From NCBI GenBank assembly GCA_000961575.1, contig LADP01000024.1:1-64000 (forward strand): a stretch of DNA of 64,000 bases, written 5' to 3'. Below are positions 3,117-45,645 of this stretch, one piece after another; the first letter of the stretch is position 1, and every line of letters begins with the position of its first letter. Below the pieces are notes generated by a model. The model ran no database searches. It saw only the letters and a list, made by a program, of their open reading frames with translations, and was not told the origin of the DNA. Position numbers and translations under genes: made by a program. This DNA is from Peptococcaceae bacterium BRH_c8a. GTDB taxonomy: Bacteria; Bacillota; Desulfotomaculia; Desulfotomaculales; Desulfallaceae.

Positions 3117-3265
3117 GAAAGGGGACACACCTCAACTTATGGGTCAATCTTTGGGGTAGAGGAATGTCCCCAACGTATAAAGGGGACACACCTCAGCTAA
3201 ATAAGGTATGGGGACACACCTCAACTTATGGGTCAGGCTTTGGGGTAGAGGAATGTCCCCGATAA
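3117..3265. repeat. Tandem GGGGACA...TGTCCCC palindromic repeats
   Basis: Two copies of an imperfect palindrome: each opens GGGGACACACCTCAACTTAT and closes GAGGAATGTCCCC, with a partial third opening segment (GGGGACACACCTCAGC) between them. The unit recurs near 44180-44258, including the shared GAGGAATGTCCCCAACGTAT. It fills the gap between the DUF2232 gene and rplI and looks like a small non-autonomous dispersed element rather than a terminator, since there is no T-run. Confidence 0.8.
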
Positions 3266-43813: not shown

Positions 43814-43843
43814 TTGCTAAGAAACTAAACCTTAGCATATAAT
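43814..43843 (+). promoter_or_regulatory. Promoter of the SCIFF peptide gene
   Basis: TTGCTA (43814-43819) and TATAAT (43838-43843), spacing 18 nt, about 34 nt upstream of the peptide start. Confidence 0.6.
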
Positions 43844-43876: not shown

Positions 43877-44035
43877 TTGGGCAAACATATAAAGACCATT
43901 AGCGGGCGGACGCTGCAGAGCACCGTGCGTGACGGTGGTTGCGGCGAGTGCCGGACTTCCTGTCAGTCGGCATGCAAGACCTCGCTGACCGTCGGCAACC
44001 AGGCCTGCAACAAGAAAAAAACTAAAAACGCCTGA
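43877..44035 (+). CDS. scfA: SCIFF ranthipeptide precursor, five-cysteine variant
   Basis: 52 residues from TTG 43877, with AAGGAGG 8 nt upstream. The leader HIKTISGRTLQ and core GGCGECRTSCQSACKTS match SCIFF (six cysteines in forty-five residues) precursors found across clostridia. Cysteines are at 22, 25, 29, 33 and 44. The usual fifth cysteine, directly before the threonine of the TVxNQ segment, is Leu37 here. Cys33 and Thr38 correspond to the Cys and Thr reported to be thioether-linked in the C. thermocellum peptide, and both are kept. The maturase follows 263 nt later. Too short for standard ORF length limits. Confidence 0.93.
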   Translation: MGKHIKTISGRTLQSTVRDGGCGECRTSCQSACKTSLTVGNQACNKKKTKNA

Positions 44036-44061
44036 TCCCGAAAGGGATGAGGCCTTTTTTT
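44030..44061 (+). terminator. Terminator overlapping the SCIFF stop codon
   Basis: GCCTGATCCC, loop GAAA, GGGATGAGGC (one internal mismatch), then CTTTTTTT. It would separate most SCIFF transcripts from the maturase gene, giving more peptide than enzyme. Confidence 0.8.
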
Positions 44062-44179
44062 CGTCAGTGGATGAAAAATTAAACGTACGAACCGATATCA
44101 CTGGAGCGCCAGAACGATTAACTTTTTAAGTTATATCAGGGTAGGATGGTTGTAAAAGTACTGAAAAGCGCGCAAAGTG

Positions 44180-44258
44180 GAAAGGGGACACACCACAGTT
44201 AAGGAAAGGGGACACACAACCCTTCAGAGGAATGTCCCCAACGTATGAATGTCCCCAA
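44180..44258. repeat. GGGGACA...TGTCCCC palindromic repeat between SCIFF peptide and maturase
   Basis: Two GGGGACACAC openings (44183 and 44209) and two TGTCCCC closings, with GAGGAATGTCCCCAACGTAT shared with the element at 3117-3265. It occupies the space between the two partner genes. Confidence 0.8.
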
Positions 44259-44298
44259 TTAAGTTGCGTGTCTCTCTTTTAGAAGGGTTGATGTTGAA

Positions 44299-45645
44299 TT
44301 GATTCATGCCTATGTCTTTGATGAAACTTTTATAGTGCTGGACGTCAATAGTGGCTCACTACATGTAGTGGATGAACCCGCTTATAACATAATTAAAGCG
44401 TTGGAGATAGCGCATCAAGAAGACGTGGCTACCCGGTTTGTACCGGTTTACGGGGCTGAAACGGTAAAAGAAGTGCTGGCCGAGGCCGCGGATTTAAAAT
44501 CCAATGGTTTACTCTTTGCGCCAGACCCTCGGCCCCATAATTTTAATAATTCTAATACCGACGGGGCGGTAAAGGCTCTTTGCCTGCACTTAGCCCATGA
44601 TTGTAACCTGCGGTGCCGGTACTGCTTTGCTAGCCAGGGAGATTACGCCGGGGATCGGGGTTTGATGTCAAAAGAGGTGGGCCAGGCTGCCATAGACTTT
44701 CTGATGCATGCTTCCGGCAATAGAAAACATGTGGAAGTGGACTTTTTCGGCGGCGAACCCCTGTTAAACCGTCCGGTGATGCAAGACCTGGTTGAATACG
44801 GTCGCCTTCGGGCCGGGGAGGCGGGTAAGGTAATCAAATTTACCCTAACCACCAATGCTATTTTGCTCGATGCCGAGGTGCAAAGGCTTATCCTAGATAA
44901 CGATCTGGCAGTGGTACTCTCGGTTGACGGCAGGCCACAAGTGCATGACCGTATGCGGCCGACACCAAGCGGCGGAAGCAGTTACCGGCGGGTAATGGAG
45001 CGCTGTGCAGAATTCGTGCGCTTGCCGTTTGATAAGGAGTATTATATTCGGGGTACGTTTACTCGTCACAACCTAGATTTTGCCGCGGATGTGCGTCACC
45101 TGGCAGAAGCCGGTTTCGACCACCTGTCGGTGGAACCGGTGGTTGCCGGAGCCGGGATGGATTATGCCCTGCGCGAAGAAGACTTACCAACAATAATGGA
45201 TGAATACAATAAACTGACCCGGTATCTATTGGAACGACATCGTCAGGGCCGCCCGGTGGAATTTTTCCACTTCAATATCGATTTAGATGACGGCCCCTGC
45301 CTGGCCAAGCGGCTTACCGGGTGCAGCGCAGGTACGGAATACCTGGCGGTAGCGCCAACCGGTGAGATGTACCCCTGCCACCAGTTTGTAGGCCGACCTG
45401 ATTTTCAGGTGGGATCTGTATTTAATGGGGTGGAAAAAGATACCACAAATATGTTCAGCCAGGCACATATATATAATAAAAAAGCCTGCCTAAAGTGCTG
45501 GGCCAGGTTCCACTGCAGCGGAGGCTGTCATGCCAACGCCCTGGCTTTTAACGGTGATTTGTTGGAACCATACAAACTGGGCTGTGAACTGGCTAAAAAA
45601 CGCTTGGAATGCGCGCTTTACCTGAAAATTTGCACCACGGCCTGA
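44299..45645 (+). CDS. scfB: Radical-SAM SCIFF peptide maturase
   Basis: 448 residues. The N-terminal peptide-recognition (RRE-type) region opens MIHAYVFDETFIVLDVNSGS; the radical-SAM cluster motif is Cys102, Cys106, Cys109 (CNLRCRYC); DFFGGEPLLN follows, and the SPASM domain has CSAGTEYLAVAPTGEMYPC and CLKCWARFHCSGGC, binding two further iron-sulfur clusters. It forms thioether links between Cys and the backbone carbon of an acceptor residue in the SCIFF peptide. The TTG start at 44299 has only a distant AGAAGG; in-frame upstream codons offer no better start. Confidence 0.95.
   Translation: MIHAYVFDETFIVLDVNSGSLHVVDEPAYNIIKALEIAHQEDVATRFVPVYGAETVKEVLAEAADLKSNGLLFAPDPRPHNFNNSNTDGAVKALCLHLAHDCNLRCRYCFASQGDYAGDRGLMSKEVGQAAIDFLMHASGNRKHVEVDFFGGEPLLNRPVMQDLVEYGRLRAGEAGKVIKFTLTTNAILLDAEVQRLILDNDLAVVLSVDGRPQVHDRMRPTPSGGSSYRRVMERCAEFVRLPFDKEYYIRGTFTRHNLDFAADVRHLAEAGFDHLSVEPVVAGAGMDYALREEDLPTIMDEYNKLTRYLLERHRQGRPVEFFHFNIDLDDGPCLAKRLTGCSAGTEYLAVAPTGEMYPCHQFVGRPDFQVGSVFNGVEKDTTNMFSQAHIYNKKACLKCWARFHCSGGCHANALAFNGDLLEPYKLGCELAKKRLECALYLKICTTA

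Follow-up and report, generated by a model that had tools for sequence, protein, structure and literature searches.

SCIFF ranthipeptides are called after six cysteines lying within about 45 residues. The locus described here encodes one with five, and it raises the question whether the missing cysteine is needed. To our knowledge, SCIFFs are nearly universal in Clostridia, and both their function and the acceptor of their cross-link are unsettled. The window that we analysed is a stretch of 64,000 nucleotides from Peptococcaceae bacterium BRH_c8a (contig LADP01000024.1), with the following features:

43814..43843, + strand: SCIFF promoter (TTGCTA, 18 nt, TATAAT), from a consensus scan
43877..44035, + strand: SCIFF precursor (ScfA) of 52 aa with a TTG start, five cysteines and Leu37 in the fifth place
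44030..44060, + strand: intrinsic terminator, GCCTGATCCC-GAAA-GGGATGAGGC and a T-run, overlapping the stop codon
44179..44259, + strand: dispersed palindromic repeat with GGGGACAC / TGTCCCC motifs, outside the SCIFF system
44299..45645, + strand: ScfB, radical SAM/SPASM SCIFF maturase, TTG start, 448 aa, matching TIGR03974 and CteB

The precursor reading frame translates as MGKHIKTISGRTLQSTVRDGGCGECRTSCQSACKTSLTVGNQACNKKKTKNA. The initial annotation took it for a 52-residue SCIFF precursor with a TTG start and Leu37 at the fifth position, and the profiles bear this out, with 78.2 bits against TIGR03973 (cut-off 50) and 78.4 bits against PF13165 (cut-off 27). Its cysteines are Cys22, 25, 29, 33 and 44, and Leu37 (CTG) replaces the fifth of the eponymous six. 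Because the curated models accept five-cysteine peptides, we file it as a five-cysteine variant and not as a six-cysteine SCIFF. The thioether donor Cys33 and the candidate acceptors Thr35 and Thr38 are all present. In an alignment, the TTG start lines up with ATG, GTG or TTG starts of relatives, and a genome search found a single SCIFF in the whole 4.17-Mb genome. CteA of thermocellin (C. thermocellum) and Tte1186a are relatives from the same SCIFF/ScfA families (TIGR03973, PF13165) and share with the window precursor the leader KHIKTI, the core GGCGEC-TSCQSACKTS-TVGNQ-C, the single copy and the adjoining ScfB. The CteA register (PDB 5wgg) is offset by one, so that CteA Cys21 is Cys22 here; CteA has six cysteines against five in the window, its Cys36 corresponding to Leu37.

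The maturase lies 263 nt downstream on the same strand. It scores 579.3 bits against TIGR03974 (cut-off 425) and is a full-length homologue of CteB (5wgg; also 5why), matching it at 484 bits with the N-terminal part of CteB included. Both the CX3CX2C motif and the eight SPASM cysteines are aligned and conserved, and the enzyme retains all 12 cysteines whose columns hardly vary within the family (radical-SAM, Cys95, SPASM). The same 12 are kept in four-, five- and six-cysteine systems, except in one or two rows with a gap or a variant residue. We take the SCIFF/ScfB pair of the window for a functional ranthipeptide locus of the ordinary kind: the precursor lacks a dispensable fifth cysteine, and ScfB would link Cys33 to a threonine. 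To this reading we assign a probability of about 0.7.

Transcription signals and gene spacing

The promoter agrees with the consensus at 10 of 12 positions, a score for which 1.1 sites are expected by chance. Its pattern TTGC...GGCATATAATTT is conserved at the same place in one congener (G002) and five other family members, but not in the other SCIFF-bearing congener (G001). In G001 the SCIFF gene (L105) follows what by eye appears to be the 3' end of a tRNA gene, and the family promoter is missing.

The terminator hairpin, with arms CCTGATCCC...GGGATGAGG followed by a T-run, folds at -18.7 kcal/mol (z -3.3). The ScfA C-terminus reads KKKTKNA in the window against KKKN, and the two congeners finish in ...NKKKN. 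The A-run at 44006-44035 is one A shorter than in these congeners, hence the window reading frame runs on into the terminator stem and the stop codon lies inside it. Ending at residue 52 is a local peculiarity; the shorter A-run may be genuine or a mistake of the assembly.

The initial annotation saw the precursor as cut off from its maturase by a terminator and a palindromic repeat. Both are indeed present; nothing about the separation is special. A terminator between an abundant precursor and a scarce enzyme is a usual RiPP layout. Each of the seven relatives aligned with the window has a similar hairpin and T-run behind its SCIFF stop codon, and such a separation is the rule in the family. 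The palindrome is a dispersed repeat with 37 matches in the window genome, 57 in G002 and 10 in G003, a further congener, and for this reason we rejected it as a SCIFF-specific control element. Another copy stands at 3119-3219 of the window, and the window genome has two Y1-type transposase genes. Rfam gave no match in 42-47.5 kb of the window.

The gap between precursor and maturase has a median of 77 nt over 193 loci. It measures 263 nt in the window, 134 in G002 and 105 in G001, and most other members of the family have 51-56; the window gap is longer partly because it holds one such repeat of about 80 bp. Adjacency of the two genes is not essential, since nine genomes of the class (G093, G069, G092, G090, G091, G105, G104, G102 and G101) have SCIFF and ScfB on different contigs. 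The SCIFF gene of G093 still has beside it (C47:5634-5762) a stretch that aligns with the final 43 positions of the ScfB model, which suggests that a maturase gene was once there.

The fifth position across lineages

That the window carries a natural Cys-to-Leu variant which bears on the need for the cysteine was a sound observation, and the variant is genus-wide, but it is by no means singular. Among 102 distinct peptides of the class, the fifth position holds Cys in 88, Leu in 7 and Ile in 7. Residues other than Cys are found in the window genus, in Desulfovirgula, in one family (Leu or Ile in all members found) and in genome G071. All 10 SCIFFs of another class, that of G118, have Leu. Among 46 peptides read from Caldisericota, 37 are without Cys at this place (15 Val, 14 Ser, 3 Met and 5 Asn, next to 9 Cys). 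Of the 83 distinct peptides in a Clostridia sample spread over the phylum of G113, 82 have Cys; the sample was drawn from the higher-scoring listed matches, and weak, divergent ones are under-represented in it. Some cysteines seemingly missing after the first regex parse of this sample (QSS and leader SA frames) were discounted as spurious when the sequences were checked by eye.

Further, about 85,000 species genomes were scanned for a non-Cys codon in the context CKTSxTV[GA]NQ. The scan returned 39 stretches, of which 37 are SCIFFs with Leu, Val, Ser, Met, Ile or Ala, and the narrow pattern makes this count a lower bound. L072 and L074 from the scan were discarded as spurious. Over all sets, the residues seen instead of Cys are Leu, Ile, Val, Met, Ala, Ser or Asn.

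Five-cysteine SCIFFs occur elsewhere in the class of G118, in family f15, and in Desulfovirgula, Caldisericum, Cryosericum and Defluviitaleaceae. As in the window, the same position is lost and the remaining five cysteines are kept; these SCIFFs differ from it in their separate origins and in the residue, which is Leu, Ile, Val, Met, Ala or Ser. A text search of the literature collection used found no paper on five-cysteine SCIFFs. A FastTree phylogeny of 213 maturases requires at least 12 changes of the fifth position, be they losses or gains; with 190 maturases, in an earlier set, 10 changes were needed. The five-cysteine SCIFF is a variant that recurs in evolution. About a dozen changes imply that Cys37 is probably dispensable, most likely for cross-linking and function alike.

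One might object that Cys37 of six-cysteine SCIFFs takes part in a further bond, either a thioether or a disulfide, and that the five-cysteine product is a simpler one with a lineage-specific role and an adapted maturase. Most residues that replace Cys are hydrophobic (L, I, V, M), and large clades are uniform in this respect, as such a view would have it, and there is a weak trend at ScfB Glu214. This was the best column among the 190 maturases: over 7 independent pairs, it tended to be lost in five-cysteine lineages (2.9 in the same way versus 0.2 in the opposite; median p 0.25). Glu214 varies among six-cysteine relatives as well, and the Gln that the window genus has in its place is also found in some of them. 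Against an altered product, neither the column scan nor the independent-pairs test found a maturase residue that significantly follows the Cys37 change, characterised six-cysteine SCIFFs show one thioether only (PMC8326336), and Thr35, Ser36, Thr38, Asn41 and Gln42 around position 37 are unaltered in the window genus. We regard an altered product as unlikely; the maturase may still be adapted to five-cysteine precursors in ways below the power of the co-variation test.

Less probable by far is that Leu37 is neutral variation, with position 37 playing no role in either form. Many different residues are tolerated there, as neutrality would predict, but Cys is kept in the 82 of 83 Clostridia peptides and in all 12 other members of the window family, which argues that the position is constrained where Cys occurs.

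Leu37 within the genus

Codon 37 is CTG in all three SCIFF-bearing genomes of the genus, namely that of the window, Desulfotomaculum sp. BL5_bin.2 (G002) and Bacillota bacterium Cu122P5bin5 (G001). These are separate assemblies, two of them public records (L073, L077). No single base change leads from TGY to CTG or back. Compared with the window, the SCIFF gene of G002 has dN 0.000 and dS 0.38, that of G001 dN 0.058 and dS 0.91. In this genus the substitution by Leu37 is fixed and kept by selection. An origin from assembly error or from a decaying pseudogene is scarcely credible: the indel in the A-run of the last codons does indicate that small errors or decay may happen at this locus, but the change takes more than one base, dN is far below dS, promoter, terminator and maturase are intact, and the agreement of three assemblies led us to reject sequencing error.

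The genus has a fourth genome, G003, in 630 contigs; neither SCIFF nor ScfB was found in it, which may reflect loss or an assembly gap. The alignment by which the rarity of Leu37 was to be judged gives a split answer, with Leu in 3/3 SCIFF-bearing genomes of the genus, 3/15 of the family and 7/102 distinct peptides of the class (plus Ile in 7/102).

Acceptor threonine and cysteine tetrad

The initial annotation placed Leu37 directly before the acceptor threonine and named Cys33 and Thr38 as the conserved partners of the thioether. The residues are as described. The acceptor is less certain, because it is disputed in the literature: the link was assigned to Cys32-Thr37 in vitro versus a Cys32-Thr34 gamma-link on co-expression (reviews PMC8326336, PMC8172795). 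Conservation speaks against Thr38 as the general acceptor. Thr35 (CteA Thr34) is invariant across all sets, whereas Thr38 (CteA Thr37) is replaced in six Clostridia peptides, by Gly in L179, L202, L212, L220 and L235 and by Ser in L239. In the Gly-bearing peptides (KTSCG) a link equivalent to Cys32-Thr37 is impossible, and they could be processed differently. From this pattern of conservation, Thr35 appears more likely than Thr38 to be the general acceptor. If so, the lost Cys37 need not adjoin the acceptor at all.

We propose that the ScfA leader (KHIKTI...) would bind the RRE domain of ScfB. The enzyme would then most likely act like CteB in thermocellin and form a gamma-thioether between Cys33 and a threonine, Thr35 being more likely than Thr38. 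The fifth cysteine would not be needed for this step. Once the thioether is formed, the free cysteines of the five-cysteine form would be exactly Cys22, Cys25, Cys29 and Cys44, a tetrad that no lineage has given up. Judged by its conservation, this Cys22-X2-Cys25-X3-Cys29...Cys44 site would have one shared role, either the binding of a metal or cluster or the formation of two disulfides. A weak match of the ScfA core to a [4Fe-4S] stretch of epoxyqueuosine reductase was not significant (E 0.36) and was left unused.

The tetrad was found in every parsed peptide, a few regex misparses having been checked by eye. The reported donor Cys33 is replaced only in L239 and L323-L327. In L239, both Cys33 and Thr38 are changed to Ser, and an ordinary ScfB adjoins. 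L323-L327 come from five Caldisericota genomes (G463-G467), where Cys33 is Ala and position 37 is Asn, so that the four core cysteines remain. Their peptides, CRECQTPCKSAAKTANTISNQIC and a close variant, match PF13165 at 45 and 40 bits and fall short of TIGR03973 (45 bits against the cut-off of 50). Among four of the five genomes dN is 0. Like the window precursor, these SCIFF-like peptides have the tetrad and an adjoining gene for an ScfB-like enzyme, here with all cluster cysteines; unlike it, they are without donor Cys33. Each of them has a new, differently placed leader cysteine, which may be an alternative donor.

These peptides allow a more far-reaching interpretation, in which the invariant part of SCIFF function is the four-cysteine site CX2CX3C...C and not the thioether. 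Six-, five- and four-cysteine peptides would then form one series, and some Caldisericota, having no known donor, would use a maturase that makes another modification. We put this forward tentatively and rate it as clearly short of probable. No discussion of the conserved four-cysteine site was found in the thioether literature surveyed. As for function, PMC8102284 cites Chen 2020 for a role of SCIFF in sporulation and quorum sensing of C. beijerinckii; some signalling role is conceivable for the window SCIFF as well.

Taken alone, the five-cysteine SCIFF is of moderate weight, and it gains more as part of a series of six, five and four cysteines. Together with the change of Thr38 to Gly, this natural series is a ready-made set of mutants. 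It shows which cysteines can go, favours Thr35 (CteA Thr34) as the acceptor and draws attention to the conserved site of four cysteines.
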